A DNA stretch of 57,631 bases from Candidatus Kuenenia stuttgartensis (lineage in GTDB: Bacteria; Planctomycetota; Planctomycetia; Planctomycetales; Planctomycetaceae): positions 1 through 57,631 of the forward strand of contig CAMAVB010000011.1 of NCBI GenBank assembly GCA_945861465.1. Direction: 5' to 3'. A program made the translations under genes and the position numbers. The notes beneath the pieces are model-generated. The model did no database searches and was not told where the DNA came from. It saw only the letters and a program-made list of their open reading frames with translations. The first letter of the stretch is position 1; every line of letters begins with the position of its first letter. Shown here one piece after another: positions 8,241 through 57,631 of this stretch.

Positions 8241-9641
8241 ATGTCAACACGCAGTACACGCCCTGATGATCCTCGCCCTGGCGGTGCCCACCGTCTGCTG
8301 CGCCGACCGGAGACACGTCCAGAGCCGGGCGACATCAACAAACCGGTTGAAGAGACGTTCGCGCCGCCTGAAGGCACCGAAATCAACATCGCTGAACTTC
8401 AGCGAATGTCAATGAAAGAGCTGATTGCCATTGCGGAGCAGGAGGAACTCACAGAATACCACGGTCTGAAAAAGCAGGATCTGATTTTCAAGATCCTCAA
8501 AGAACGGACGCGCATGAATGGACTCATGTTTGGCGAAGGGACATTGGAAATTCTGCCGGACGGATTCGGATTTCTGCGCAGCCCGGATTATCACTATTTG
8601 CCATGTCCGGATGACATCTACGTCAGCCCCAGCCAGATTCGGCGTTTTGGATTGCGCACCGGGGCAACCGTCGCGGGTCAGATTCGTCCGCCGAAAGAAA
8701 ACGAACGCTACTTCGCGCTGTTGCGCGTCGAAGCGATCAATGGAGAAGACCCGAATGAACTGACGAACAAAGTGTTTTTTGACGACTTGACGCCGCTGCA
8801 TCCGGAACGTCGCCTGCGACTTGCCGACAACGCTGAATTCCTGAGTACACGCATCGTGGATCTGATCGCACCGATCGGACTTGGCCAGCGTGGCCTGATC
8901 GTGTCACCGCCGCGGGCCGGAAAGACGATCCTGCTGCAACAGTTGGCGAAAGCGACGCAGCAGAATCACCCGGATGCCTACGTGATCGTGCTGTTGATTG
9001 ACGAACGTCCGGAAGAAGTGACGGATATGGAGCGGAAGCTGAAAGGCGTGAATTGCGAAGTCGTCAGCAGTACGTTTGACGAACCGACAGCGCGGCATAT
9101 TCAGGTGGCCGAAATGGTCATCGAAAAAGCCAAACGGATGGTCGAATACGGCCAGGATGTCATAATCTTCCTCGACAGCATCACCCGCCTTGCCCGCGCA
9201 TGGAACACGGAAATCCCGAATTCCGGCAAGACGCTCTCTGGTGGCATTGATGCCGGTGCGCTGCAGCATCCGAAACGATTCTTCGGAGCAGCTCGCTGCG
9301 TGGAAGAGGGCGGCAGCCTGACGATCATCGCGACCGCATTGGTGGATACCGGCAGCCGGATGGATGAAGTCATTTTTGAAGAGTTCAAAGGCACGGGCAA
9401 TACAGAGTTGCATCTGGATCGTCGCATGGTTGAGAAACGCATCTGGCCGGCAATCGACGTCAATCGTTCCGGAACCCGCCGCGAAGAATTGCTGATGAAT
9501 GAGGAAGAGTTGAAACTTGTCTGGGTACTTCGCCGTGTACTGAATGACATGAATCCGGTGGACGCGATTGAACTGCTGGTGAACCGTCTGAAACGGACGA
9601 AGTCGAACGAAGAATTTTTGCTGTCGATGAATCTTGGATAG
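8241..9641 (+). CDS. rho: Transcription termination factor Rho
   Basis: 466 aa from the ATG at 8241, with GGAGG about 12 nt upstream; the frame extends back to a TTG at 8118 that has no support. Hexameric RNA-dependent ATPase that ends transcription. Order: a basic, proline-rich tail (1-45), the Rho N-terminal helical domain ([18 protein letters not shown]), the RNA-binding cold-shock-like domain ([18 protein letters not shown]) and the ATPase core. Walker A is SPPRAGKT (222-229), Walker [15 protein letters not shown], and the Q/R loops and arginine finger region ([10 protein letters not shown]) are present. The extended N-terminal tail is common in deep-branching bacteria. ribH starts 5 bp downstream. 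Confidence 0.95.
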
Positions 9642-9646
9642 GTCGA

Positions 9647-10117
9647 ATGTTTATGCCAACCGAACTCCACGGACAACTCACCGCTGCCGACTCATCGTTC
9701 GCGATCGTGGTGTCGCGATTCAATGATCTCATTACAAAGCGATTGCTTGAGGGCGCGATCGAGACGGTCGTGCGGCATGGTGGCAGCGCCGACAGGATTA
9801 CCATTGCCTGGGTGCCGGGTTCGTTTGAAATCCCGCTCGCCGCATCAAAGTTCGCAAAGTCCGGTAAGTACGCGGCCGTGATTTGTCTGGGAGCCGTAAT
9901 TCAAGGGTCGACAACGCATCACGAATACATCAACAGCCAGGTCGCATCCGGCATCATGGGTATTACTCGGGAAACGGGAATTCCGGTGACGTTCGGCGTC
10001 ATTACCTGCGAATCGATGGATCAAGCTCTCGACCGTGCAGGCGGGAAAGTCGGGAACAAAGGCCGTGAAGCGACACTGGCCGCAATTGAGATGATCAACC
10101 TGCTGAAGATGATCTGA
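9647..10117 (+). CDS. ribH: 6,7-dimethyl-8-ribityllumazine synthase
   Basis: 156 aa (154 if the second ATG at 9653 is used). Condenses the ribityl-pyrimidine with dihydroxybutanone phosphate, the penultimate riboflavin step; family members assemble as pentamers or 60-mers. Seen: VSRFND near the N-terminus, WVPGSFEIP, the conserved [16 protein letters not shown] with the catalytic His, and the C-terminal [14 protein letters not shown]. It starts 5 bp after rho, so the two are very likely co-transcribed. Other riboflavin genes are not in the window. In many bacteria ribH is followed by nusB, as here. Confidence 0.94.
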
Positions 10118-10123
10118 CCTGAA

Positions 10124-10226
10124 GGCGAGCGGCTGGGCGTCAGCCCCCCGTGTGTCTCTAGTTGAGTCAATCGTGTCAGCAAAACAGCTAAAACATACTC
10201 GGAGGGCTGACGCCCTGCCGCTCGCC
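10124..10226. repeat. Long imperfect inverted repeat between ribH and nusB
   Basis: Arms at 10124-10149 and 10201-10226 pair almost fully (GGCGAGCGG.TGGGCGTCAGCCC against GGGCTGACGCCC.GCCGCTCGCC) around a 51-nt AT-richer loop. A half copy of the same arm lies at 19764-19790. It has no T run and sits inside a likely transcript, so it reads as a dispersed repeat that could slow or process the RNA. Confidence 0.75.
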
Positions 10227-10289
10227 AGAATAATCTGCGCATCGTGCGCAGTTCCAAATTGTTAAACTCGAAGCTGATTCAAACTAAAA

Positions 10290-10700
10290 ATGGCCGGACG
10301 TTCAGAAGCTCGTCGATTTGTTCTGCAAATGCTCTATTTGTTTGACCAGAATCCGGAAGCCGATCAGGATCGCGTGCAGGCAGAACTCCGTCGGCAATTC
10401 ACCGACGCTGCGCTGCGGGATTTTGGATGGTCCCTCATCACCGGCGTCATCGCGGCGCGGGAGGAACTGGATGCCGCGATCTGCCGCACTGCGACGAACT
10501 GGCGTCTGGACCGGATGGCTCCTACAGATCGCAACGTGCTCCGGATGGGCCTTTACGAAATGACACGGATGGGCACGCCAGCGGCTGTCGTCATCGACGA
10601 GTCGATCGAAATCGCCCGCGAGTTCGGCACGGAGCACTCCAGCAGCTTCGTCAACGGCATTCTGGATAAGCTTATCCCCGCTTCCCCCGCGGTCGAATGA
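10290..10700 (+). CDS. nusB: Transcription antitermination factor NusB
   Basis: 136 aa. RNA-binding all-helical protein that with NusE binds boxA in rRNA operon leaders. Seen: the N-terminal RSEARRFVLQMLYLFDQN helix with the conserved Arg pair, the central RMAPTDRNVLRMGLYEM and the C-terminal VVIDESIEIAREFGTEHSSSFVNGILDKL. Length is normal. It ends the coaE-rho-ribH-nusB run, with the long hairpin between ribH and nusB. Its last 29 bases overlap the 3' end of a minus-strand gene. Confidence 0.94.
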   Translation: MAGRSEARRFVLQMLYLFDQNPEADQDRVQAELRRQFTDAALRDFGWSLITGVIAAREELDAAICRTATNWRLDRMAPTDRNVLRMGLYEMTRMGTPAAVVIDESIEIAREFGTEHSSSFVNGILDKLIPASPAVE

Positions 10701-46958: not shown

Positions 46959-47374
46959 GTCCGAAAATCTCCTGAAGCGGCAAAGCCGCGATACCCGCAG
47001 AAAACGCCTGAGACTCAAAGATTGGCAGAGCGAGGATCGTCCGTCAAGCGGTTGACAAATTTGACCTGCGTTTGGGTGCAATCGCCGATTTCTGCAGATT
47101 TTGCCTGCCGGGCTGGACTTCGCGGCTTGCCGCGACCTGCGATGAGGGGAGCTTCTACCGTGTCTGGAGGGAAGCTTCTACCGTGTCTGGCACCGCCATC
47201 TCTCTTGAGACGACCATGAGCTTCTAAGTCGCCATCACAGCCAAAGACACAATGTCCGAAGCAGGCGGCATCTGAAGAAACACGGGAATCCGAATTCGCA
47301 GAAAGAGGTGACGAGGACGCCAGAAACGAAACAGGGGAAACCAGTTTAACCCGGTTTCCCCTGTGTTTTCAGCA
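46959..47374. other. 416-bp core-side spacer before the tRNA fragment
   Basis: AGCTTCTACCGTGTCTGG occurs twice, at 47150-47167 and 47173-47190, a 23-bp period. The terminator of the interrupted tRNA lies at its right end. No gene is supported. Confidence 0.5.
47331..47364 (-). terminator. Terminator of the interrupted tRNA gene
   Basis: A perfect 12-bp stem, ACAGGGGAAACC with GGTTTCCCCTGT, and a 10-nt loop; on the minus strand it is followed by TTCGTTTC. It lies 10 bp beyond the tRNA 3' end on the core side, as expected for the terminator of the original tRNA. Confidence 0.75.
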
Positions 47375-47416
47375 AGCCGCCGAAAGGACTTGAACCTTCG
47401 ACCTACGCTTTACGAA
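47375..47416 (-). tRNA. 3' fragment of tRNA-Thr(CGT); element attachment site
   Basis: Minus strand, tRNA positions 32 to 73. The anticodon loop reads TT-CGT-AA with T33, then the 3' half of the anticodon stem, variable loop AGGTC, a complete T arm (GAAGG, loop TTCAAGT, CCTTT) and the acceptor strand CGGCGGC with T73. The 5' half (acceptor GCCGCCG and D arm) is missing: sequence beyond the loop is unrelated. This is the scar left by integration into a tRNA gene, with crossover near the anticodon loop. The intact copy should be at the other end. The CGT assignment rests on loop register. Confidence 0.8.
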
Positions 47417-47490
47417 TGCCGCGAGTGTGTTCAACCAATGTCGAAACAGCGTAAAAACACTGGACAAACAGCACTTCTGAAAATACGATC

Positions 47491-47542
47491 CATTCACCTC
47501 GGTGCCTGTTTTTGATCAAAAAGGTGAATGGCGAGGTGAATG
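47491..47542. promoter_or_regulatory. Candidate integrase arm sites or operator
   Basis: Three copies of AGGTGAATG: one inverted at 47491-47499 (CATTCACCT) and two direct at 47522-47530 and 47534-47542, enclosing the 14-bp palindrome TTTTTGATCAAAAA at 47509-47522. The cluster lies 75-125 bp inside the tRNA scar, the usual distance of arm-type integrase sites from the core. A regulator operator for the gene at 47648 is the other reading. Confidence 0.45.
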
Positions 47543-47647
47543 AAACGAAATCAAATCGGGGATAGACCGGCCAGTCGATAAAGCAGCTTCCGAACTGCCT
47601 TCCCCGTTTGTTTACTTTCGGACTCGACTTACGGAAAGTCGAACGCG

Positions 47648-48490
47648 ATGGATACCTTTTGCGACGAAACTGATTACGCCTTCACTATTGGCGGTGAACC
47701 ATCCGCAAACATGTGTGAGTGGTGGTTAAGTCAAGAGCCGTTCAAGTGGCGACCGATGGATACTTCATCGCCACATTCTTTAGAACTGCTGTATTTCTCT
47801 GAACATGGGCTTATCAGGGTTCAGTCAGAAATCCAGGCATTCAACGCGAATGCTGCGAAAAGCGCTTTGCGGCTTACGATCACACAGCAAGGGCCGTTTC
47901 GAAAGCAACGCCTGATTCGTTCATTGGCACCGGATGCTGCCTACTCGCGATTCATCCCAGACGATTGGCGAGTTCATCCGTGGACGTTGGACTATCAAGA
48001 GTCATCGACACACTTTTGGATTCCGAAGCAATCTCAACTGCTACGAAAGCATCAGGCATCAGTAAAGGGTGTTACGAAGTTCATGCACGCAATTGAGAAC
48101 GCGCCGGATGAGTTTCCCCTTGCTTCACATCTTTCACTCGTCCGGGCCCAATTGAGCGACGAGATACTTTTCGAAGATCGTGAACATGCGGAGAAGATTG
48201 CAGTTGCCGAAGAATGGAACATCAAGTTCTTTACTGACGATGTTCGCCCTGCCATCGAATGGTGTGTGATTTTTGGACATGAACGGAAAGATAAGAAACC
48301 GATCACCCCTCGCACATTTCACAATCGAATCAACGGGCTGAAGGGCAAGTCGATTCGTTGCAAATTCTCTGGAAGCGAAGGTTATCGAATCTACGTTGAT
48401 CACCTTCCACCGGGCACAAAGACACGTGCGAGCCGTGATGAGATAGTTCTCAATGCTGGTTTGCAAGGCCGTCGAAATCGTGGTTCGTGA
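47648..48490 (+). CDS. Element protein of unknown function
   Basis: 280 aa. No family recognised. The first third is rich in aromatic residues (MCEWWLSQEPFKWRP, HPWTLDYQESSTHFWIPK); the middle is helical and charged (EHAEKIAVAEEWNIKFF), and the end has TPRTFHNRINGLKGKSIRC, which could be a winged DNA-binding hairpin. No signal or membrane helix. It is the first gene inside the element and is followed by a good terminator, so it is its own unit. The ATG at 47648 follows GGAAAG. Confidence 0.65.
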   Translation: MDTFCDETDYAFTIGGEPSANMCEWWLSQEPFKWRPMDTSSPHSLELLYFSEHGLIRVQSEIQAFNANAAKSALRLTITQQGPFRKQRLIRSLAPDAAYSRFIPDDWRVHPWTLDYQESSTHFWIPKQSQLLRKHQASVKGVTKFMHAIENAPDEFPLASHLSLVRAQLSDEILFEDREHAEKIAVAEEWNIKFFTDDVRPAIEWCVIFGHERKDKKPITPRTFHNRINGLKGKSIRCKFSGSEGYRIYVDHLPPGTKTRASRDEIVLNAGLQGRRNRGS

Positions 48491-48520
48491 ACCAAGCGTG
48501 AACCAAGCGTGAACCGAAGC

Positions 48521-48558
48521 AAAAAGGCGTCAGACAAGTTCTGGACGCCTTTGTTTTT
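48521..48558 (+). terminator. Terminator after the first element gene
   Basis: Stem AAAGGCGTC with GACGCCTTT, loop AGACAAGTTCTG (which adds three inner pairs AGA/TCT), then TTTGTTTTT. It is preceded by 11-bp direct repeats (CGTGAACCAAG twice, then CGTGAACCGAAG) at about 48486-48520. Confidence 0.85.
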
Positions 48559-48626
48559 GCCTGTAACGTGCATTGATCAGCAGTCAATTCGACTGCGTTT
48601 TCATCACTCAATTGTGAGATGGATCA

Positions 48627-48854
48627 ATGCGACAGAAACAGGATACGGCAGACACGCTACAGCCCATTGACGACGGCAGCGTATACCCGATGGCAGCATT
48701 CATGCGGGCAACTGGCTGGGGACGTCATGCACTCAAGCACGCTCGGCAGCAGGGGCTGAGAGTCGTCAAAGTTTCGGGACGGTGCTTTGTTCGGGGGAAG
48801 GACTTCAGCGAGTTCCTCGGGACACTGGCAGCGGATAGCGAGGTGTCGCGATGA
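48627..48854 (+). CDS. Small helix-turn-helix protein, excisionase-like
   Basis: 75 aa. After a short tail, YPMAAFMRATGWGRHALKHARQQGLRVVKVSGRCFVRGKDFSEFL reads as a winged-helix domain of the excisionase/AlpA type: helix-turn-helix followed by a wing with VRGKDF. These bind near att sites or early promoters in mobile elements. It starts a chain of three genes in which each start overlaps the previous stop (ATGA at 48851, TTGA at 49060). Confidence 0.7.
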   Translation: MRQKQDTADTLQPIDDGSVYPMAAFMRATGWGRHALKHARQQGLRVVKVSGRCFVRGKDFSEFLGTLAADSEVSR

Positions 48855-49063
48855 GTGGAGTCAATTATCTCGACGGCGACACTCTCGACTTATGCCACCA
48901 GGCCCTGCGTGACGGCAGGACGCTCGAAGACATCGCAGGCAAGCTGCATTTCGACTGCGAGTATCTCGGGAGACTGCTGCAACTGCCGACGACGACCGGC
49001 AACATGGTTGAACAGCCAGCGGATTATTTGTGGTCCTGCGATCGTCTGGATGGTGTCCTTTGA
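48851..49063 (+). CDS. Small element protein, unknown
   Basis: 70 aa, starting at an ATGA overlap with the gene before. The sequence LCHQALRDGRTLEDIAGKLHFDCEYLGRLLQL looks like a helix-turn-helix of the kind that reads 'DIAGKL...YLGRLL', so DNA binding is plausible. The tail is Trp/Cys-containing and not recognisable. Translationally coupled on both sides. Confidence 0.6.
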   Translation: MSGVNYLDGDTLDLCHQALRDGRTLEDIAGKLHFDCEYLGRLLQLPTTTGNMVEQPADYLWSCDRLDGVL

Positions 49064-49254
49064 CGCCTGAACAAATCGCAGATATCAGGCAGATGCGAGG
49101 CTTCAATGTCTCGTGGCACATTATCGCCAGACGACTCGGGAAGACTGTCCAGGAGTGTCGCGCGGCAATCAACATGCCGGAATATGACAAGCCGACAGAG
49201 CGGCAATCAATGCCCTGGGACAAGTCACAGCAGACGTTGCCTTTTGGGCAATAA
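49060..49254 (+). CDS. Small helix-turn-helix protein, unknown
   Basis: 64 aa from a TTG at 49060 that overlaps the previous stop (TTGA); a GTG at 49030 is the alternative and would overlap by 34 bases. LTPEQIADIRQMRGFNVSWHIIARRLGKTVQECRAAI is a plausible homeodomain-like or sigma region-4-like helix-turn-helix. The terminator 3-40 bp downstream closes this three-gene unit. Confidence 0.6.
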   Translation: MTPEQIADIRQMRGFNVSWHIIARRLGKTVQECRAAINMPEYDKPTERQSMPWDKSQQTLPFGQ

Positions 49255-49292
49255 AAAAGCCGTCACGTACTAACGCAACGGCTTCTCTTTTT
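49255..49292 (+). terminator. Terminator closing the three-gene regulator unit
   Basis: AAGCCGT and ACGGCTT form a 7-bp stem around a 14-nt loop, preceded by an A run and followed by CTCTTTTT. It separates the small regulators from the primase-helicase gene. Confidence 0.75.
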
Positions 49293-49347
49293 CAATTCGC
49301 TTGGCGGCGAATCAACAGCACTCAATGGTCTAAAGTGAATCATACCG

Positions 49348-51993
49348 ATGGTTGAAAAACATTCAATAGTTTCCGCGCTGAGTCTGCGCGGATGCGATCC
49401 ACATCAGGACGGTGAAGGATGGCGTGCAAAGTGTCCCTGCCACGAAGGAACTACAGCAAACAGTCTTGCCATTTCCGCAGATGGGAAGATGTTCTGTCAT
49501 GGATGCCAGGCCAATACGGGCGACATCCTGAAGGAACTTGGTCTGGCTGAAAACTCGTCATCCTACAAGCCGAAGCCAAAAGTGACGATTGACGGAAAAA
49601 CAACCACACTTCACGACAGCGAGGAAGCGGCGATTGATGGCGTGAAGTGGTCTGTCTTTGAGAAACAGAAAGACATTGCACCGCGTCCACCAGACCGAGT
49701 TCACCGATACCACGACAAGGATGGAAACCACATCTTCACGGTTGTCGTCTGGAAGTTCTCGCCTGAAAAGAAAGAGGCTCGGCAGATTCGAAAGCACGAA
49801 GGCGGCTGGATCTGCAAAGCAATGAAGGCGGCGCGTCCACTGTATCATCTGCCGGAGGTGATTGAAGCCAGTAGCGTTGTCGTCTGCGAGGGTGAGAAAA
49901 CTACCGACGCGCTACGGTCAATTGGACTGGTCGCCACAACGCCAAGTCAGGGTGCGATGTCACCGAAGAAAACCGACTGGTCTGTTTTGGCTGACAAGTG
50001 TGTGACGATCACCGTGGATAACGACGACGCTGGACGTGAATTCGGAAAACTGGTGATTGATCTGCTACCCGAATCCGTTGTGTCGGTCAAAGTCGTTGAA
50101 TTGAAAGACGACTGGCCAGAACTTCCAGTCAAAGGCGATGCAGCGGACTGGATAGAACATTTTGCCGACGTCGATCACTCGACGCTTCGCAATCGGTTCA
50201 AGTCGCTACCCGATCACTTCGAGACAATCAACGCGATTGTGCCAAAGAAAAAACGGACGCAGCGAGAATCAAAGGAATCAGAATCCGGACGTCCGGAAAT
50301 CGAATTGACGCTGGATGAGAGAGCGGTCAATGATCTGGTGATTGAGGCGCTCGCCAAGCGTACTGATATTTTTGATCACAACGGAAGTCTGGCGGTTATC
50401 GTCGATGAACATGTTGACGGCGAAGAATCCCGCAAAATTATTCAGCATCTCAGCCTTGCCACACTTCGAGAACTGATCAGCGAGACATGCAAGTTCTACG
50501 TGCTGAAATTGGACAAAGAGACCGGCGAAGAAACCGAGTCGTTTCAGCGCACTCCGAAATGGTGTTACGACGCTGTTTTGGCGCGTGGTACCTGGTCAGG
50601 CATCCGACCGATACGCGGGATCGTCACCAGTCCTGTCTTGCGTGCGGATGGCAGTATTCTCCAGTCTGCTGGCTACGATGCTGACAGCGCCTTGTATGTC
50701 GATCTGACTGAAGTATTCCCGGAGATCACTTCGGCACCGTCAACAGATGATGTCAAGCGAGCTGTGGAGATGCTGTTTGACTTGGTTGCTGACTTTCCTT
50801 TCCGCGATGGTGGAAGCAAGTCTGCATGGCTCGCCAGTCTGTTTACGCCATTGGCGCGGGAAGCGTATCGCGGTTGCACAGGTCCGGTGTTTCTATTCGA
50901 TGCGAACATTCCAGGCAGCGGCAAGTCACTTCTGGCAGATATCAACGCTCTGATTGTGACCGGACGTGAGGCGACGCGACTGACGGCACCGCAGAATGAT
51001 GAGGAAGCCAGAAAGAGAATCACGGCTCTTGTGAGTGATTCCGACCGTATCGTTTTGATTGACAATATCGCTGGTCGTTTCGGCTGCGCGTCACTTGATG
51101 CAGCTTTGACTGGGACAGTATGGAAGGATCGTCGGCTCGGTCACACTGAATTGATTGAGGCACCGCTACGGATGACGTGGTATGCGTCCGGCAATAATGT
51201 GATTCTGGCGGCGGATACTTCCCGGCGAGTCTGCCACATCCGTCTGGAATCGAAGTTGGAAAATCCTGAAGACCGTGAAGGCTTCAAATATCCGGACATC
51301 CGAAAACACGTCCGGCAGAATCGACCAGCACTGTTGACGGCGGCTTTGACGATCCTGCGCGGTTACATCGCTGCCGGACGTCCCGACAAGAAACTCAAGC
51401 CGTGGGGATCGTTTGAGGGCTGGTCTGATTTGGTCCGCGCCACAATCGTCTGGTGTGGCCTGACGGATCCAGGTGAAACCCGGACGGAACTTCGGGCGAC
51501 ATCCGATAGCGAGGCCGGAGCACTCCGCCAGATGCTGATGGCGGTTAACCATGTTGATCAGGATGCACATGGACTGCGAACATCTGACATGCTCAAGATT
51601 GCGACGGGCAAAAGTAAAGACTACGGCACCGACGATGCAGATGTTCTACGTGAAGGAATCGAAGTGTTCTGCGAAAGCAATATCGATCGCGTCAACAATC
51701 GGCGGCTCGGCGTTCGTCTCAGTCACTTCCGGAATCGCGTTGTTGATCAAATGGCGTTTGACTGCACTCTCAAAGGCGGCACGAACTATTGGTTTGTTCA
51801 GTCCCTTGGTGGATCTGGTGGATCTGGTGTATCTCATACGGCCAATCTCAGTGTGTGTAAAAAAACAGATGTTCAGGCAATTCATAGCGATATAGCGCTA
51901 CCGTCATCCGGCGAAAACAGATCCACCACATCCACCACATCCACCACATCCACCAATCCGAACCTCGACTGGCTGGAAGGATCGCACTTATGA
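49348..51993 (+). CDS. Primase-helicase of the element
   Basis: 881 aa. Order: a CHC2-type zinc finger with Cys29, His32, Cys50 and Cys53; a TOPRIM-like primase core with Glu181/Glu183 in VCEGEKT and Asp224/Asp226 in TVDNDDAG; a linker rich in basic residues; and a C-terminal AAA+ helicase with Walker A IPGSGKS (near 521-527), Walker B-like RIVLIDN, sensor SGNN and arginine-finger region DTSRRV. The last 60 residues contain Gly/Ser and Thr/Ser triplet repeats encoded by 9-bp DNA repeats. It should open and prime the element's origin. Bifunctional proteins of this plan are typical of satellites and phages. A 52-aa gene starts within its stop codon. Confidence 0.85.
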   Translation: MVEKHSIVSALSLRGCDPHQDGEGWRAKCPCHEGTTANSLAISADGKMFCHGCQANTGDILKELGLAENSSSYKPKPKVTIDGKTTTLHDSEEAAIDGVKWSVFEKQKDIAPRPPDRVHRYHDKDGNHIFTVVVWKFSPEKKEARQIRKHEGGWICKAMKAARPLYHLPEVIEASSVVVCEGEKTTDALRSIGLVATTPSQGAMSPKKTDWSVLADKCVTITVDNDDAGREFGKLVIDLLPESVVSVKVVELKDDWPELPVKGDAADWIEHFADVDHSTLRNRFKSLPDHFETINAIVPKKKRTQRESKESESGRPEIELTLDERAVNDLVIEALAKRTDIFDHNGSLAVIVDEHVDGEESRKIIQHLSLATLRELISETCKFYVLKLDKETGEETESFQRTPKWCYDAVLARGTWSGIRPIRGIVTSPVLRADGSILQSAGYDADSALYVDLTEVFPEITSAPSTDDVKRAVEMLFDLVADFPFRDGGSKSAWLASLFTPLAREAYRGCTGPVFLFDANIPGSGKSLLADINALIVTGREATRLTAPQNDEEARKRITALVSDSDRIVLIDNIAGRFGCASLDAALTGTVWKDRRLGHTELIEAPLRMTWYASGNNVILAADTSRRVCHIRLESKLENPEDREGFKYPDIRKHVRQNRPALLTAALTILRGYIAAGRPDKKLKPWGSFEGWSDLVRATIVWCGLTDPGETRTELRATSDSEAGALRQMLMAVNHVDQDAHGLRTSDMLKIATGKSKDYGTDDADVLREGIEVFCESNIDRVNNRRLGVRLSHFRNRVVDQMAFDCTLKGGTNYWFVQSLGGSGGSGVSHTANLSVCKKTDVQAIHSDIALPSSGENRSTTSTTSTTSTNPNLDWLEGSHL
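51808..51955. repeat. 9-bp iteron-like repeats in the 3' end of the primase gene
   Basis: GGATCTGGT-type units at 51808-51829 and ATCCACCAC three and a half times at 51921-51955. The two clusters share the inverted heptamer GGTGGAT/ATCCACC and flank about 90 bp. They encode GGSGGSG and TTSTTSTTST in the protein. Repeats of this size next to the replication gene are a plausible origin. Confidence 0.6.
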
Positions 51994-52148
51994 AACCAAC
52001 CGCAACATTTGGCGTGTTCGCATACCCGACGAATCGCGACATGTGCCGTGGGTGCTTTCTTGGCGCTCGGTACGCGGTGACGTTCCTGAGATGCCAGCCG
52101 AACAACTGGAAGCAAACCCGACCGGCTTTCGATGCGAGGAACAACTAA
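51990..52148 (+). CDS. Small 52-aa element protein
   Basis: ATG at 51990 overlaps the primase stop as ATGA, and its TAA at 52146-52148 overlaps the next ATG as TAATG. The frame reads MKPTATFGVFAYPTNRDMCRG and continues to DARNN. A Cys-rich spot (MCRGCFLG) could bind metal. No family is recognised. Exact overlap at both ends is the argument that it is a real gene despite its length. Confidence 0.6.
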   Translation: MKPTATFGVFAYPTNRDMCRGCFLGARYAVTFLRCQPNNWKQTRPAFDARNN

Positions 52149-52405
52149 TGCCGACCAAACTTCTCGACGTTCATCAGGTGGCGGAGCTGCTGAACATCAG
52201 CAAGCGAACCGCAGAGTATTGGCAGGCATCCGGGCGGCTTCCGGGGTTCGTGCGAGTCTACGGCCATCGTCGGTGGCGTAGCGATGCGATTGAAGCGTGG
52301 TTTGCTGCCGGGTGTCCAGAATTAAGACTTGGGTGTGCAGATCAACGCAATCCGGACAAGCCGATATCGACCGGCGAAAACAATCAGAGAGAATCAGAAA
52401 CATGA
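52148..52405 (+). CDS. Excisionase/MerR-type helix-turn-helix protein
   Basis: 85 aa from the ATG at 52148. LLDVHQVAELLNISKRTAEYWQASGRLPGFVRVYGHRRWRSDAIEAWFAAG is the helix_turn_helix_17/AlpA pattern: winged helix with the typical 'RW..DAIEAW' end. Such small proteins act as recombination directionality factors or early activators of integrated elements. Its start shares one base with the preceding stop and its stop overlaps the next start as ATGA. The C-terminal tail is polar and probably disordered. Confidence 0.8.
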   Translation: MPTKLLDVHQVAELLNISKRTAEYWQASGRLPGFVRVYGHRRWRSDAIEAWFAAGCPELRLGCADQRNPDKPISTGENNQRESET

Positions 52406-52596
52406 TCACGCAAGCTATCAATCTTGACGACCCGCAGACCCGCCAATTTGTTGGCGAGTACCTGGACGCTCGGCGCGATGGGCTGCTGAAAGACTGGACG
52501 CCAGGCGAATACGTTCGGCAGCGTCAACGTGATGAAGAGAACAAACAACTCGGCGGATTGTCTGCCGATGATGATGACGACACTTTGGAGAACTGA
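52402..52596 (+). CDS. Small acidic element protein, unknown
   Basis: 64 aa starting at an ATGA overlap. It begins MITQAINLDDPQTRQFVGEYL and ends in a highly acidic stretch (SADDDDDTLEN), with a basic middle (RQRQRDEENKQ). One long helix is likely. No family recognised. Its stop is 2 bp before the next start. Confidence 0.6.
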   Translation: MITQAINLDDPQTRQFVGEYLDARRDGLLKDWTPGEYVRQRQRDEENKQLGGLSADDDDDTLEN

Positions 52597-52598
52597 AA

Positions 52599-53315
52599 AT
52601 GCCGGTACTGACTGAGGCTGAATTGGAAAAAGAAAAACAGGCGACACATCGGAAACGTCGTGCCGCATTGCAGGCTCGCCTGAAGAATCGAGACGAAGCA
52701 AAAAAGCGATTGGATCGCGCAGGTGAAGAATTGAAGATGGCTCAAAGTCTGGTCGCCGCGCACACACGAACACCGGGCTACGTCCGGGCGTTTGAGGCGG
52801 CGTTTGCCGAGGTGGCGAAAGCCTACAACGACATCAACAACGAGATTCCGAACGAACTTCGGAACACGTGCCAGGATCCAGCCCTACGCGATGAATTCGA
52901 AGAGCGCGGCGAATCTCGGCGACAGATGATTCGTGAGATTCAGTCAGCGCGTGAGGCGGTTAAGCGTGAAGATCAGAATTTGGCGTCTGTCGTTTCGAGT
53001 ATCAGTCAGCAACGAGGCGAACCCGCACGCTTACAGCCTGGCGAGCAATTGCCCTGGGCAACGAGTCTTGTCGGTCGCGTACTCGGTGCAATGTCCGGCA
53101 ACGACTCACCGACATGGGCTATCTGTGGCGAAGATATCGCGTTCCATCCAAGCGTGAACAAGTCAAATGTTGAGCACTACGCGCGAGTCTGGCGGGAAGC
53201 GAACAAGGATGTCCGACTTTCAAAACGTACGCTCGCTGATGTTGAGCGGCGGCTGGCAGAAGTCGAATCGGATTTTTCTGAAATCAAGCAACGCATGACT
53301 GCGAGTGTAGTGTGA
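52599..53315 (+). CDS. Coiled-coil element protein, unknown
   Basis: 238 aa. Residues 5-60 and 110-140 and 205-235 have heptad-like patterns of Glu/Lys/Arg and Leu/Ala (ELEKEKQATHRKRRAALQARLKNRDEAKKRL), so a long coiled coil is probable; the middle (PGEQLPWATSLVGRVLGAMSGN) is less helical. Such proteins act as scaffolds or regulators in phages but nothing here says which. It is fused tightly to the neighbours: its TGA overlaps the next ATG by one base. Confidence 0.6.
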   Translation: MPVLTEAELEKEKQATHRKRRAALQARLKNRDEAKKRLDRAGEELKMAQSLVAAHTRTPGYVRAFEAAFAEVAKAYNDINNEIPNELRNTCQDPALRDEFEERGESRRQMIREIQSAREAVKREDQNLASVVSSISQQRGEPARLQPGEQLPWATSLVGRVLGAMSGNDSPTWAICGEDIAFHPSVNKSNVEHYARVWREANKDVRLSKRTLADVERRLAEVESDFSEIKQRMTASVV

Positions 53316-53656
53316 TGCCTGGAGGACCGTTCATTTCGCCAGGCGATTTAGTTTCTGATTCAAATTTTTTGGAGAATGTTTCGATGAGTTCAAGCACATT
53401 GGATGCACAGTTCCGGGCTGAGTTTAAGGCGGCAGAATACAACATGAGTGAGGCGGAATTCGTTTCGCTCCGCAGAGCTGAAATGGGGCTCGAACCCTTC
53501 ATTCCTGCCAAGACAACGGGCGATCCTGAAATCGTTATCGGGACGGACGATGTTCCTTATCAACGTGAGTACGAAGCTGGCAGTTTCAGCATGACGCTGA
53601 ATCAGTATGTGAGCCTGCGACGTGCCGAGGATGGCAAGGAAGCTTTCCTTCCGTGA
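53315..53656 (+). CDS. Small element protein with two 30-residue repeats
   Basis: 113 aa from the ATG at 53315; an ATG at 53384 with GGAG 9 nt upstream would give 90 aa and is an equal choice. The end is a duplication: EYNMSEAEFVSLRRAEMGLEPFIP and SFSMTLNQYVSLRRAEDGKEAFLP align over about 30 residues with a shared VSLRRAE core. No membrane helix or signal. The repeat type is not one I know. It closes the run of overlapping genes that began with the primase. Confidence 0.6.
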   Translation: MPGGPFISPGDLVSDSNFLENVSMSSSTLDAQFRAEFKAAEYNMSEAEFVSLRRAEMGLEPFIPAKTTGDPEIVIGTDDVPYQREYEAGSFSMTLNQYVSLRRAEDGKEAFLP

Positions 53657-53980
53657 TGAGCTAAACGGCGGTACTGCAATGATGCGGCGCTGTGTCGCAG
53701 TTCGCTTCTGTCACCTGAAATGGTGGCCCTTTACGGCGGTGCAAACCCGCTACCCGCGTGAGGCAACGGCGCGACTTCGGTCAGTAGCGCGGGCTTGTTT
53801 TTGTGCGGAAAACGCTGGTGTTTTTCGTTTGGGACGGCGTGAAAACATTGGTGTTTTTGACCCTAGGGGGGGGTGTTAGGTACTTTCCCGGTCCCCGGAC
53901 GGGGCGCGCAGAGGACGTTTCGTACGAAATTCGTCTAAAGGATTTTTTGGGACCGACATACTACCTCGAAAGGAAAAAAA
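53657..53980. other. 324-bp gap in the element with no supported gene
   Basis: Open frames exist but have poor codon use. A weak hairpin (CCCGCG with CGCGGG, near 53752-53795) followed by CTTGTTTTT could be a terminator for the upstream run. A G run (CCTAGGGGGGGG) lies near 53862-53875. A very good ribosome binding site (AAAGGA, then an A run) ends the gap. Confidence 0.45.
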
Positions 53981-54346
53981 ATGAGCACCGTAGCAACGGA
54001 CACGAACGGACGCCTGCCTGATGGAACATTCGGGCCGGGCAACAGAGCAGCCAGCGGCCACAAGCGGCGGCAACGCATGGCGGAACTGCGAGCGGCATTC
54101 GTCCAGGCGGTCACCCCGGAGGCCGTTCAGGAAATTGTGGCGACACTTGTACGCCAGGCTAAAGACGGTTGTCCGCAATCCGCAAAGTTGGTTCTCGATC
54201 GTGCCTTGGGAAAGGTGACGGTATTGGATTCTGAAGACCCGCCACCAGATGAGCAACGAACGCTCACTGTGGCCGAACTTGGTCCGATCACTCCGGAAAA
54301 CATTGAACAGCATCGCGCGGCAAGGCTCGCTGCGCTGAGTCGATAG
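53981..54346 (+). CDS. DUF5681-like small protein, possibly terminase-small-like
   Basis: 121 aa. GRLPDGTFGPGNRAASGHKRRQRMAELRAAFVQAVT is a pattern shared with DUF5681 and related phage-borne proteins: a 'GxF.xGN' loop followed by a basic helix. The middle (VQEIVATLVRQAKDGCPQSAKLVLDRALGKV) is helical. These proteins often lie next to terminase large subunits; none is found here. The ribosome binding site (AAAGGAAAAAAA) is the strongest in the element. Function is open. Confidence 0.65.
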   Translation: MSTVATDTNGRLPDGTFGPGNRAASGHKRRQRMAELRAAFVQAVTPEAVQEIVATLVRQAKDGCPQSAKLVLDRALGKVTVLDSEDPPPDEQRTLTVAELGPITPENIEQHRAARLAALSR

Positions 54347-54357
54347 GAATCCCGACG

Positions 54358-54447
54358 ATGATACGACTGGTTTTCACGAAGAATGCGGCGGTCGATGCTG
54401 TCTGGCATACGATGCTGGCGGCGGCGGTGGCGTTGTTGTTCGGTTGA
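54358..54447 (+). CDS. Possible 29-codon membrane peptide
   Basis: ATG at 54358 reads MIRLVFTKNAAVDAVWHTML and ends AAAVALLFG before TGA. The hydrophobic second half could sit in a membrane. There is no clear ribosome binding site. It lies between the DUF5681-like gene and the pentapeptide-repeat gene. Confidence 0.25.
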   Translation: MIRLVFTKNAAVDAVWHTMLAAAVALLFG

Positions 54448-54533
54448 TCATTCCGCTACACTCGGAGTCAGACACCATCGCCACAATCGACCGGTGGTGG
54501 TAGCAGACTGCTTGTTAAAGAAAGGCGAGGCAC

Positions 54534-55748
54534 ATGGCGAACCCGGAACATGTTCAGATTGTGCGGCAGGGCGCTGCGGCAATCGAAGAGTTTCTGGAGA
54601 AGTACCCGGACGTCCGTTTTGACCTGACCGGTGCCAGCCTGATGGGTGCCGGCTCGCGTGGTGCCAACCTGAGAGATGCCAACCTGACCGGTGCCAACCT
54701 GTACGGTGCCGACCTGAGCCATGCCAACCTGATCGGTGCCAACCTGAGAGATGCCAACCTGACCGGTGCCAACCTGATCGGTGCCAACCTGAGGGATGCC
54801 AAGCTGAGCGGTGCCGACCTGAGTTTCGCCAGCCTGAGCCTCGCCGACCTGAGCGGTGCCGACCTGAGTTTCGCCAACCTGAGCGGTGCCGACCTGAGTT
54901 TCGCCAACCTGAGCCTCGCCGACCTGAGCGGTGCCGACCTGTTCCGTGCCGACCTCAACGGTGCCAACCTTAACGCTGCCACCCTCAACGGTGCCGACTT
55001 GTCAGGTACCAGAGTTCGTTCAACAGTAGTATTTGAAGGAGTTACGTGCTACCAAACCAGGGTCGATCGTTCAACTGCAGAATACATGCGAGACCACTTA
55101 ACGCATGGGCAAATGATGGATCTCATAATCGCCGATGATTTGGCCACGCTTCGAGGAGAGTTTAGCGGACTTTGGGGTGCGATTCACTTGATTAGCATTC
55201 TCGTGTTTTTATTGCCCTATGCGTGGTTTTTGGTCCAGCAATCATTGGCATCAAGAGTCCGTGACAACACAGAATCTGCAATCTACTCAATTGAAGCGTG
55301 GGCAAAGAGTCAATCGGATCACATCACGATAGTGTCTTCTGAATCATTCAAGACAGCTGTCGAAAGTAAGATTCAGCAAACTGCAAAGGAATGGCGAGAA
55401 CAATTGAAACTCGAACAGCCGCAAGAGATTTCAATCCTTGCCGCTTTGTTTCGTTATATTTGGAATGGGGGCAATCGATGGCGTGAGGGGTACTATTTCA
55501 ACGGATCGTCGTTTGTTCCGTTTGTGTGTGTCGCCCTTTACAACGCGCTTCGACTGACATTGATGATCAAAACAATAAAGTTGGAGACACTTGAGTCGGT
55601 TCGAAAATTACCGGTGGTTTTCAGTATGGGTACTGGATGGAAAAGTTGGCGAGCGGTCTACAAGTTGAATCAGATCGGCTACTGGGTGGCTCTTGGGTTG
55701 ATTCTGAAGAGCACAGTGTATTTTCTGAGCACATCCATTCAACTCTGA
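54534..55748 (+). CDS. Pentapeptide-repeat protein with three membrane helices
   Basis: 404 aa. Residues 29-160 are about 26 uninterrupted A(N/D)LxG pentapeptides that should form one right-handed quadrilateral beta-helix. Then follow a soluble stretch and hydrophobic segments at 214-234, 327-345 and 382-402, with a helical, charged part (243-300) between the first two. The repeat DNA is nearly uniform (GGTGCCAACCTGA and GGTGCCGACCTGA units), pointing to recent expansion. Pentapeptide proteins can mimic DNA or act as scaffolds; with membrane helices, a membrane-acting effector or a receptor-like role is possible. It stands apart from the replication genes, so cargo is likely. Confidence 0.85.
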   Translation: MANPEHVQIVRQGAAAIEEFLEKYPDVRFDLTGASLMGAGSRGANLRDANLTGANLYGADLSHANLIGANLRDANLTGANLIGANLRDAKLSGADLSFASLSLADLSGADLSFANLSGADLSFANLSLADLSGADLFRADLNGANLNAATLNGADLSGTRVRSTVVFEGVTCYQTRVDRSTAEYMRDHLTHGQMMDLIIADDLATLRGEFSGLWGAIHLISILVFLLPYAWFLVQQSLASRVRDNTESAIYSIEAWAKSQSDHITIVSSESFKTAVESKIQQTAKEWREQLKLEQPQEISILAALFRYIWNGGNRWREGYYFNGSSFVPFVCVALYNALRLTLMIKTIKLETLESVRKLPVVFSMGTGWKSWRAVYKLNQIGYWVALGLILKSTVYFLSTSIQL

Positions 55749-55792
55749 TCAATTACAGCAAGTGGTCGCGGGGATGCTGTGGCTAGCGATGG

Positions 55793-55829
55793 CAGCGGGT
55801 TGATTGAGTTCTGCCGACAGCGATGGCAA
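55793..55829. repeat. 37-bp direct repeat flanking the two-gene cassette, left copy
   Basis: Begins CAGCGGGTTGATTGAGTTC, identical over 19 bases to the right copy at 56916, then diverges in the middle and matches again at GCGATGGCA. It lies 11 bp before the small membrane gene. Confidence 0.7.
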
Positions 55830-55839
55830 AATCCCTCGC

Positions 55840-56001
55840 ATGAATCCGTATGCTCCGCCAACAACGCCACCAGAACCCCGAAAGGCACGTAGGCCGTTGA
55901 CGCCTGCAATGTGGGCGTTGATAGTGTGTCGGGGTGCTGTTGCTGCTGCGATTGCTTGGAGTCACATGAACAATCTCGCCAACATGAAATGTCCAACATG
56001 A
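55840..56001 (+). CDS. Small single-pass membrane protein
   Basis: 53 aa from the ATG at 55840. A proline-rich, polar start (MNPYAPPTTPPEPRKARRP) leads to one hydrophobic segment (MWALIVCRGAVAAAIAWSHM) and a short tail. The last codons overlap the next start as ATGA at 55998-56001, so translation is coupled to the zinc-ribbon gene. No family recognised; a membrane partner for that gene is likely. Confidence 0.55.
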   Translation: MNPYAPPTTPPEPRKARRPLTPAMWALIVCRGAVAAAIAWSHMNNLANMKCPT

Positions 56002-56909
56002 CTTCCCGAATCGTAGTGACGTGTCCACATTGCAATGGGAAACTCTCGACTGCGCGAGCGAACGCGGGCAAGCGTTTGCGATGTCCAAAATGCCAATCGA
56101 GTGTTCACGTGCCGGACGTTGAAAACGAAGTTGTTCCACCGCCACAAGGAACGACGATTGCGGAAGTAGTCGATGCCCAAAAAATCCCGACCACGACTTT
56201 CGTATGCGACAGTGAGCCTGAACGATTGCCTCAAATCCGACCATCAACTGGAAACACAAGCCGGCATCGGGCCAGGAATAATAATCGCCTCGGGTATCTG
56301 TTCGGCGGATGCATTGTTACTGGATGCATGATCGTGATGATCGTGTTTAACAGGAGCCGATCACAGAGTGACCCCCGTGTGGAGCAACTCCGCAGCGATT
56401 TTGCGGCCACGGGGCAGATTGTTTCTGACGGTGAACTAAAGGAACTGATCAGGCAAACGGAAGAAAGGCACGGCGTAGCCACCCATGACCAACGTGGATA
56501 TCCGCTGTACGAATTACTTCCGTGGGAGAAAGCAGAGCAACCTTGGTCGTGGAACCAAACCAACCGACCGTTTGTCGTGAGGCCGGCAACGATTACCGAA
56601 TCTCATATTAAGACCGCTCCCGGAGTCGAACACCGCTACGTTGACGTTGAATACACGAACACATCGGACCCAGCCATAGTAGAAGCTGCTGCCACCGAAG
56701 TCTGGCGACACTTTGCCAAAGAGATCAACGAACGACATCCGCAGGCGGAGTACAAAATGGTGTCTGTGTATATTTATGTTGACGATCAGGAAAAAATGGA
56801 GAACCCGGTCGGGCGTGTGTGGAACCACGCTTCTGCGAAGTTGCCAGACCAGCCAGAAACCGAATGGTTCTACAATAAATCCCGACTCATATTTGAGCCG
56901 ACGAAATGA
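55998..56909 (+). CDS. Zinc-ribbon membrane protein, unknown
   Basis: 303 aa from the ATG at 55998, chosen for its ATGA overlap; ATG 55989 is nearby. It opens with a four-Cys zinc ribbon (Cys9, Cys12, Cys29, Cys32; VVTCPHCNGKL and RLRCPKCQ), then a polar linker, one membrane helix at about 98-117, and a 185-residue domain outside or inside the cell, ending in VEYTNTSDPAIVEAAATEVW and a YIYVDDQEKM strand. The ribbon is of the MJ0042 type often seen in planctomycetes. The distal domain is not recognised. Together with the small membrane gene it forms a cassette between two copies of the 37-bp repeat. Confidence 0.65.
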   Translation: MTSRIVVTCPHCNGKLSTARANAGKRLRCPKCQSSVHVPDVENEVVPPPQGTTIAEVVDAQKIPTTTFVCDSEPERLPQIRPSTGNTSRHRARNNNRLGYLFGGCIVTGCMIVMIVFNRSRSQSDPRVEQLRSDFAATGQIVSDGELKELIRQTEERHGVATHDQRGYPLYELLPWEKAEQPWSWNQTNRPFVVRPATITESHIKTAPGVEHRYVDVEYTNTSDPAIVEAAATEVWRHFAKEINERHPQAEYKMVSVYIYVDDQEKMENPVGRVWNHASAKLPDQPETEWFYNKSRLIFEPTK

Positions 56910-56915
56910 TGCTCG

Positions 56916-56952
56916 CAGCGGGTTGATTGAGTTCCGTTGTCGGCGATGGCAT
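56916..56952. repeat. 37-bp direct repeat flanking the two-gene cassette, right copy
   Basis: CAGCGGGTTGATTGAGTTC, then CGTTGTCGGCGATGGCA. It sits 7 bp after the zinc-ribbon stop codon, mirroring the left copy 11 bp before the small gene. Confidence 0.7.
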
Positions 56953-57062
56953 ACTGTGTTCTGCGGGATAGGCCGGGAGTAATTGCCCTGGCCGACAAGC
57001 TGGTTCGCACAATCAGTTTCCCGACTTTCATTTGTGCGGTCACTTAGTGCGGAGTGAATTCA

Positions 57063-57631
57063 ATGTCTGACGAAATCAACGTCATTGTGGTGAAACGCAA
57101 GGGGCTGAATCTGTACCTGCGTTACATCGACCCGATTGATGGCAAGCGCCGTGAAAAGAACAGCGGCACAACCAGCATGAAAGCGGCTCAGCGAGCTGCA
57201 GGCGAATGGCAAGCCGAACTCAACGCCAGTGGCACTGCATCGCCGGGGTTGATGCGGTGGGACCAATTCCGAGAGGACTTCTCTGAAAACTACCTGGCTC
57301 ACTACAGTCAGGGATACATCACGAACGTCGAAGGTAGTCTGAACGTCATTGAGGAACTGATGAACCCTGACACGTTGGCGAGGATCACAGAAAAGTGGAT
57401 CACTCGTTTTCATTCACTGGCCAGAAAACGCAAAGTTGCGAATGCGACGGTTCGGAAATACTTTCAGCATCTGAACACGGCGATGAAGTGGGCGAAGGAT
57501 CAGGGGTATATCAAAGCCGTCCCGACATTCCCGAAACAGAGTCGCCAGACGAAGAAAGGCGGCAAGCTGATGAAGGGGCGTCCGATCACTGGCGAGGAAT
57601 TCGACCGGATGATTGAAGCCGCCGACAATGA
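57063..57631 (+). CDS. Tyrosine recombinase (integrase), N-terminal part
   Basis: Open to the window edge: at least 189 codons from the ATG at 57063, with GGAG 8 nt before it. The start (INVIVVKRKGLNLYLRYIDP) fits an arm-binding domain, and WDQFREDFSENYLAHYS with ATVRKYFQHLNTAMKWAKDQGYI is the SAM-like core-binding domain of phage-type integrases. The catalytic domain with the R-K-H-R-H-Y residues is beyond the edge; the last residues (GRPITGEEFDRMIEAADN) mark its beginning. It is the natural enzyme for the tRNA-Thr site at 47375, though it lies at the far end of the element. Confidence 0.85.
   Translation, partial: MSDEINVIVVKRKGLNLYLRYIDPIDGKRREKNSGTTSMKAAQRAAGEWQAELNASGTASPGLMRWDQFREDFSENYLAHYSQGYITNVEGSLNVIEELMNPDTLARITEKWITRFHSLARKRKVANATVRKYFQHLNTAMKWAKDQGYIKAVPTFPKQSRQTKKGGKLMKGRPITGEEFDRMIEAADN

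Follow-up and report, generated by a model that had tools for sequence, protein, structure and literature searches.

A likely phage satellite at a tRNA-Thr gene of a planctomycete genome, with relatives across Planctomycetota

Genes and features of the element

The DNA analysed here (the window, 57,631 nucleotides) is the whole of contig CAMAVB010000011.1 (our C11) in the draft genome of Candidatus Kuenenia stuttgartensis, which comprises 8.2 Mb in 474 contigs. It carries a mobile element of ~11 kb, inserted in a tRNA-Thr(CGT) gene and starting at position 47374, which we consider likely to be a phage satellite. All genes of the element lie on the plus strand, with overlapping starts and stops and the integrase last (Table 1); the window ends with the contig, which cuts the integrase after ~189 residues. 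An earlier note on this DNA had taken the tRNA scar, the overlapping plus-strand genes, the primase-helicase, the excisionase-like protein and the integrase for one integrated unit with its own replication module, and we found each of these parts. No capsid, portal, large terminase, relaxase or transfer family was matched by the window proteins scanned (13 against Pfam, 10 against PHROGs), and PF05065, PF05119 and phrog_2 gave zero matches across the whole of the element's own genome.

Several relatives, referred to below by our own handles, have genes encoding 220-300 amino acids (aa) at the place of gene 1, without a shared family. Homologues of g75 occur in 16 of 45 regions searched, including all eight bounded elements of that set, and the G081 copy is 97% identical. 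The HTH (helix-turn-helix) protein has a weak match to the small-terminase family phrog_57 (E 0.0021) and the 238-aa protein weakly matches tape-measure families (best E 0.0026), a frequent result with coiled coils; neither was counted. The 238-aa protein had no phage match, and none at E 0.001 among the 5,067 open reading frames (ORFs) of the 45 regions, a 267-aa protein of G081 included. The 121-aa protein had no PHROG match and no phage match, and its single-sequence model was unusable (predicted local distance difference test score, 60.8); a small-terminase-like role is possible but unproven. Relatives of this protein are present in two similar phage-like regions of one genome (L134 and L135, in G135). 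The visible part of the integrase is 75% identical to the integrase of G081 and 71% identical to that of G053. Imperfect direct repeats (86%; 55792-55828 and 56915-56951) flank the Cys-rich cargo gene, and a similar block stands before the G081 integrase, which suggests cassette-like exchange of cargo.

Table 1. Features of the element and of its left flank in the window
Feature	Position	Strand	Basis or remark
Decayed C-terminus of a different integrase, before the scar	47201..47260	+	tblastn with G081 integrase
Terminator-like hairpin of the original tRNA-Thr	47331..47364	-	14-pair stem, T tail
Left attachment site	47374..47419	-	46 nt, 45 of them from the 3' part of tRNA-Thr(CGT)
Promoter-like site TGGACA-17-TACGAT, weak	47461..47489	+	2 found vs 1.3 expected by chance
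Three AGGTGAATG repeats, one inverted and two direct	47490..47542	.	Candidate integrase arm sites
Structured RNA, Rfam int-alpA family (RF02996)	47555..47610	+	Rfam match 47555-47622
Gene 1, 280 aa	47648..48490	+	No known family (Pfam, PHROGs)
g75, 75 aa	48627..48854	+	No family match; AlpA/Xis (excisionase)-like in place and size
70-aa protein	48851..49063	+	Weak relatives in G053, G081, G113
74-aa overlapping ORF	49030..49254	+	No family match
Primase-helicase, 881 aa: weak CHC2 zinc finger, Toprim, D5/SaPI-type AAA+ helicase	49348..51993	+	
HTH_17 excisionase/regulator	52148..52405	+	HTH_17 (Pfam) 8.3e-11, phrog_66 7.5e-10
64-aa protein, overlaps HTH gene	52402..52596	+	
238-aa coiled-coil-like protein	52599..53315	+	Same place as G053 capsid gene
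114-aa protein, internal repeat (by eye)	53312..53656	+	No Pfam/PHROG family
121-aa protein	53981..54346	+	7 relatives in 6 other genomes
Pentapeptide-repeat protein, cargo	54534..55748	+	Pfam 1.3e-35; relative in G136 element
Protein with Cys-rich N-terminus, cargo	55989..56909	+	Sub-threshold RNHCP match
Tyrosine integrase, cut by contig end	57063..57631	+	Phage_int_SAM_5 4.1e-10, phrog_1 1.6e-16

Attachment site and same-genus relatives

The scar at the left attachment (att) site is 46 nt long, includes the CGT anticodon loop of tRNA-Thr, and has one mismatch to the exact 46-nt repeat that bounds the G053 element at both ends. The hairpin adjoining it is one of three such sites detected (2.5 expected in shuffles), and by eye a block resembling it lies beside the intact tRNA-Thr in G101, G143, G155 and G156. 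Further to the left, 17 of 20 residues are identical to the G081 integrase (tblastn, E 3.6e-4), interrupted by an internal stop; judging from this match, the segment is probably left over from an element that occupied this tRNA before. With 20 codons of a degraded integrase terminus standing in front of the scar, the tRNA-Thr gene has probably been used more than once. Inside the element, blocks similar to the promoter-like site were seen by eye in G101, G053 and G081, and AGGTGACACTT repeats occupy the matching place in G053, G081 and G113, and additionally lie 3' of the integrase in G053 and G081.

ARAGORN found no intact tRNA within the window. In the rest of the genome assembly no second copy of the att repeat was found (39-nt pattern, up to 3 mismatches), and no intact tRNA-Thr(CGT) was detected with a pattern for the tRNA 5' part (up to 3 mismatches) or with a tRNA model. 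No integrase fragment among the PF00589 proteins of the genome fits the missing right end. Two candidates for this end were rejected: a C-terminal integrase fragment at the end of contig C102 is integron-like by eye and has no tblastn match to the sibling integrases, and contig C195, which starts with a tRNA, starts with tRNA-Arg.

The right junction can be seen in siblings of the same genus. The G053 element measures 9,840 bp between its exact 46-nt repeats, with an intact tRNA-Thr 95 nt after the integrase, and G081 has the same right-hand arrangement, its left end lying on another contig. The tRNA repeat that the earlier note expected at the right end is thus present in G053, and the intact tRNA-Thr in both siblings, and neither was found in the assembly of the window's own genome. 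Because only the integrase tail and ~95 nt precede the intact tRNA in G053 and G081, no hidden block of capsid or tail genes is expected past the window edge; the statement that the visible part is no self-sufficient phage gains support from this, as it does from the missing virion and transfer matches.

The earlier note had also advised looking for empty sites in related genomes. G143 has the lactonase flank and the tRNA-Thr without an element and with a single copy of the repeat. It matches both flanks of G053, with 94% identity over 125 nt at the left junction and 91% over 1.8 kb on the right, and it also contains ~1.5 kb without a match in G053. The right-hand match continues leftwards past the repeat for ~210 nt and reaches the final integrase codons of G053. 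In view of the extra sequence and the match into integrase codons, the G143 site is near-empty rather than pristine and probably still holds an integrase remnant.

An int-alpA-type RNA at the left end

The window copy of the RNA scores 29.5 bits against RF02996 (E 0.0076), below the gathering threshold of 35.8, and so does that of G110 (31.3). Four relatives score above it: G101 (37.9), G113 (37.3), G053 (37.1) and G158a (38.8). No match at E 0.1 was obtained in G081 and G070. Consensus shape and core are those of the Rfam family; the window copy differs from it in its sub-threshold score and, when the element is integrated, in lying at the end opposite the integrase. Compensatory base-pair changes are present. 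Five same-genus copies (4 distinct) aligned with MAFFT have 50 of 50 cells paired and both sides changed in 4 of 13 pairs, a double-change count reached in 28 of 500 shuffles; the covariation score was reached in 0 of 500. When eight copies, 7 of them distinct, were fitted to the model, pairing held in 84 of 84 cells and 7 of 12 pairs had changes on both sides, which 0 of 500 shuffles achieved and for which slid controls gave at most 1.

We also built an RNA model of our own (R1) from the window, G053, G081, G101 and G113, which match it by construction. R1 finds further copies in L135, G158a, G018 and L253, and its matches above 27 bits outside the builders are L135 (44.8 bits, upstream of a gene), L116 (41.9), L112 (30.6) and L253 (27.3). 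Matches below 27 bits were not used (L136 25.9, L062 25.1, L067 22.7, L064 20.0 and 17.8, a second one in L086 20.0, L114 18.8, L069 18.1, L051 15.4). Scans with R1 gave one match in one set of 43 sources and none in another of 26. Twelve of the bounded relatives described below (all except L201) were searched for the RNA, and four have it: G053, G158a, G018 and, by a sub-threshold Rfam match, G110.

In the same-genus elements that have it, and in G158a and G018, the RNA lies between att and the first gene; in G101 the left end with the RNA is at the scar of a different tRNA. Some 10 kb separate it from the integrase in the integrated state, and in an excised circle it would directly follow the integrase, as it does in L253, where an int-alpA-like RNA stands between the integrase and the next gene. 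It might act as a leader, as an immunity RNA or as a sensor of excision. We know of no function assigned to the int-alpA family. In the text returned by our literature search, int-alpA and an integrase came up together only in work on E. coli vesicle RNAs. Between the capsid gene and the integrase of the G158a element lies a sub-threshold match to the c4-2 RNA (L116 15636-15713; 36.3 bits, gathering 41); C4-type RNAs are phage immunity RNAs.

The primase-helicase

The 881-aa protein matches PHROG primase families, and its Toprim match is slightly below the Pfam cut-off. Its structural model is confident for residues ~166-821, except 290-308. Residues 159-298 superimpose on DnaG (5guj; Z 12.1, 2.6 Å, 119 aligned residues) and residues 307-812 on the primase-helicase of SaPI5, a Staphylococcus aureus pathogenicity island (SaPI) (7ola; Z 14.6, 6.4 Å, 374 aligned residues), on a par with poxvirus D5; these two are the closest solved structures to the helicase fold. 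The model supports a predicted Toprim primase joined to a D5/SaPI-type AAA+ helicase. Relatives are present in 51 of 150 family genomes at E 1e-8 (own genome counted), many matching one part only. Scanning IMG/VR with the window primase alone gave no match; a scan with an alignment did find relatives.

A family of related elements in Planctomycetota

When named genomes were scanned with an alignment of the integrases, the best 80 of 87 matches fell into 79 loci, all but one titled Planctomycetota (some by genus names that we take to belong to this phylum); the sole other title is an Emcibacter metagenome-assembled genome. Among the loci are L159 of Blastopirellula marina DSM 3645 and L194 of Botrimarina hoheduenensis, both cultured relatives. 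A tRNA lies within 600 bp of the integrase end in 62 of the 77 loci with at least 250 bp available downstream, and 56 of the 62 are convergent with the integrase.

Thirteen elements with related integrases are bounded by att repeats: G053, G070, G110, G158a, G158b, G131, G136, G018, L158, L164, L178, L186 and L201. Ten of them measure 9.2-10.3 kb, the others being G136 (13.9 kb), G131 (14.6 kb) and G018 (18.1 kb); for the five L elements, with 10-kb flanks, sizes above ~11.4 kb were undetectable. The count leaves out short repeats in L179 (2,272 bp) and L218 (2,827 bp), taken as remnants, and the elements of G001, G007, G050 and G109 (16.7-25.3 kb), which have att repeats and a related helicase and whose integrases were not placed in this clade. 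Some relatives carry cargo of defence type, namely SEFIR/TIR proteins or a methylase with a type III restriction protein.

Virion and packaging genes are present in many of these relatives. In G053, genes for an HK97 major capsid protein (phrog_10, 8.5e-40) and a small terminase (phrog_83, 8.5e-6) accompany those for a DnaB helicase and an initiator, and nothing in this element was recognised as a portal, large terminase or tail protein. G110 and G158a likewise have a capsid protein (2.6e-39 and 3.7e-39, respectively) and a small terminase (2.5e-32 and 4.9e-31). The HK97 capsids of the siblings are 421-470 aa long, and the unassigned frames listed for G053 and G110 reach 249 aa at most, less than a portal or large terminase needs. 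G070 has a capsid-protease fusion (3.1e-65), G158b a small terminase (PF05119, 6.1e-18), G018 a tape measure (9.4e-71), and one of L158, L164, L178, L186 and L201 a large terminase (phrog_9 7.7e-36, PF03354 7.2e-8), by eye L164 (6400-7836). At least one head, packaging or tape-measure gene is thus found in 7 of the 13 bounded elements, and capsid and/or small terminase in five. Outside the 13, G081 has a head-maturation protease (3.2e-34) and G071 a capsid (7.5e-38) with a 143-aa protein that has a major-tail-type match (8.4e-8). The tallies behind these counts list 25 of 99, 25 of 34 and 25 of 40 families, and single further matches are possible; a greedy choice of frames by length passed over at least one genuine gene (the small terminase of G158b, recovered with PF05119), so absences are not firm. 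The TerL (large terminase) family phrog_2, the only large-terminase family tried there, had no match inside the eight elements of the genomes searched and matched only outside them. The lack of virion genes pointed out in the earlier note accordingly holds for the window proteins scanned and fails as a trait of the family.

Four of 32 IMG/VR contigs examined whole end in direct repeats of 125-144 nt, as circular assemblies do. L226 (8,486 bp) has a family integrase at 38% identity, a weak initiator match (E 0.007) and, by eye, a DnaB-like frame. L253 (9,625 bp) has a serine integrase, a primase, a small terminase (8.1e-10), an HTH protein and a capsid (1.9e-38). L294 and L327 (10.5 and 10.6 kb) have relatives of the window helicase, at 36% and 31%, and by eye rather than by family search also capsid-, protease- and terminase-like frames, with a portal-like frame in L327. 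Their circularity is no proof of packaging.

A probable helper-dependent satellite and rival explanations

We think it likely that the element is a phage satellite that depends on a helper and belongs to a Planctomycetota family. We base this on the att scar and the repeats of the siblings, the near-empty site in G143 and the tRNA-adjacent, convergent integrases; on the ~10-kb size class, the capsid, terminase and tape-measure genes of relatives and the occurrence of phrog_2 only outside the elements; and on the SaPI5 primase-helicase among the best solved folds, the circular IMG/VR contigs and the covariation of the RNA. Integration at the tRNA, a replication protein of its own and a conserved left-end RNA can be read from the sequence. 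For the window copy we infer dependence on a helper and packaging in helper particles. The satellite reading put forward earlier is supported in part, for integration, replication module and family.

Several findings weigh against this interpretation. No helper, induction or particle was observed; the right end of the element is absent from its own assembly; and no capsid, terminase or other gene for hijacking a helper was recognised in the window copy. Of the 12 bounded relatives searched for the RNA, 8 gave no match (G070, G158b, G131, G136, L158, L164, L178 and L186), and G131, G136 and four of L158, L164, L178, L186 and L201 have no head or packaging family among the matches listed. Integrase relatives (32-64% identity) occur in 30 IMG/VR loci, 23 of them on contigs longer than 20 kb, the closest one on the 48-kb contig L223. 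As relatives are found on larger viral contigs, the integrase alone is no marker of satellites. The L223 integrase (9243-10493) is 64% identical to a satellite integrase and lies near tRNA-Glu and tRNA-Met; L223 is possibly a phage relative or a helper.

The helper-dependent satellite might work as follows. Entry of a helper phage would let the Xis/AlpA-like proteins switch on the operon and excision, and the excised circle would replicate through its own primase-helicase. Element DNA would then be packed into helper particles. Some siblings may bias packaging by supplying their own capsid and/or terminase, and the window copy would rely on helper capsids, perhaps through the 238-, 114- and 121-aa proteins. 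The RNA, placed downstream of the integrase gene only in the circle, could report or regulate the excised state.

The strongest alternative, which we regard as unlikely, is a replicating genomic island that integrates and excises and is moved by plasmids, integrative and conjugative elements or general transduction, with no dedicated phage helper. Such an island would account for a window copy devoid of any recognised packaging gene, and for the several siblings that consist of replication genes and defence-type cargo with no listed head gene. It fits poorly with siblings that combine a related integrase and g75 with a capsid and a small terminase, with the many bounded relatives in one size class near 10 kb, and with the failure to match any relaxase or transfer family in the window.

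We judge it improbable that the element is a capsid-forming satellite in which the 238-, 114- and 121-aa proteins are capsid and terminase proteins too diverged to recognise. Their genes do fall in the interval from the HTH_17 gene to the integrase, which in G053 houses the capsid and small terminase genes, and the 121-aa protein recurs in other phage-like regions. Against this, they have no accepted family match, two of them were tested and had no phage match, there is no usable model, and none is as long as the HK97 capsids of the siblings.

A decayed prophage that has lost its virion genes is slightly less probable still: integrase relatives on larger viral contigs, the decayed integrase end in the left flank and single phage genes retained by siblings, such as the tape measure, would suit it, but the genes of the window copy are open frames, elements of different genera share the attachment habit and g75 and, for a subset, the RNA, and circular contigs of 8.5-10.6 kb have related layouts.

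Returning to the helper-dependent satellite, the siblings look like satellites equipped with one or another single piece of the machinery by which phages package DNA; in the window member no such piece can be recognised. Tentatively, and with rather more doubt than confidence, we propose a phylum-wide satellite family of Planctomycetota. Its members would share a common frame (tRNA site, usually convergent integrase, AlpA-like g75 and, in a subset, the int-alpA-type RNA across att). Replication modules would be exchangeable between members, and the isolated parts for packaging would vary from member to member: a capsid, a small or a large terminase, a protease, a tape measure or nothing at all. 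The RNA, which adjoins the integrase gene only in the circle, would serve the circle as a switch or an immunity RNA.

Comparison with known satellites

Lacking a full virion gene set in its assembled part (Pfam, PHROGs), the element resembles phage satellites in general, and with an integrase, a primase/replication module and no structural genes it resembles phage-inducible chromosomal islands (PICIs), SaPIs included. It shares with them the integrase, an excisionase-type regulator, a primase-helicase with a helicase fold like that of SaPI5 Pri-Rep, small size and cargo. Unlike them it has a DnaG-type Toprim primase domain, and its integrase comes last, in the direction of the operon. Gram-positive PICIs have a divergent regulator-integrase arrangement, and PICIs show phage-dependent induction and specific packaging, as described in PMC6092414. 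No regulator divides the integrase from an opposite replication operon in the window, where all genes are on the plus strand. Psu and Sid, the capsid-size proteins of P4-like satellites, had no Pfam or PHROG match in the window, though both are said to be without sequence homologues in PMC11389934.

Capsid-forming PICIs (cf-PICIs) are also small integrated elements with their own primase, and some siblings of the window element have, like them, an HK97 capsid and a small terminase and no tail genes. The window copy has no capsid gene of its own (no PF05065 in the whole genome); G053, G110, G158a and, as a fusion, G070 do. The siblings differ from cf-PICIs in having one or two head or packaging genes, with portal and large terminase unrecognised beside the capsid; further differences are the tRNA sites, the int-alpA RNA and host groups other than those named in PMC10803314. 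The same paper describes phage-inducible chromosomal minimalist islands (PICMIs) of Vibrionaceae, which have a similarly reduced set of integrase, alpA-type gene, primase and defence cargo and integrate at fis, the site here being tRNA-Thr. It also names tycheposons and virion-encapsidated integrative mobile elements (VEIMEs) of marine bacteria, mobile islands of which some may be satellites. Most known phage satellites come from Proteobacteria and Firmicutes, in part according to that text (PMC10803314).

The family appears to be a variant within the phage satellites, not a new kind, and an apparently undescribed and widespread group. We take P4-like satellites to be similar in size (~10 kb), in having their own primase-helicase and in an alpA/vis-type gene, with a gene order that differs from that of the window element. 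Tycheposons and VEIMEs presumably resemble it in tRNA sites and replication modules and differ in host groups; tycheposons have a recombinase and a cargo set specific to their family. The suggestion that a new planctomycete satellite family might be at hand agrees with the 13 att-bounded relatives, and the text retrieved in our literature search contained no work that mentions phage satellites together with planctomycetes. If our reading is correct, a satellite family across many planctomycete genera would widen the host range of phage satellites. Its natural members with, apparently, just a capsid and a small terminase would make it simpler to ask what parts for packaging a satellite needs of its own, and the placement of the int-alpA RNA gives that RNA family a concrete, testable setting.

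Other observations

A second pair of capsid and small terminase genes lies on a different contig of the sibling genome (G053:C72, 154382-156792). A large protein is shared upstream of the integrase by L116 (15558-17033) and L119 (15451-16704), with similar frames in L115 and L123; two of these were tested and had no PHROG match. To the left of the element in the window, a sequence of ~75 nt at 47070-47146 is an interspersed repeat found at very many places in genomes of the same genus.

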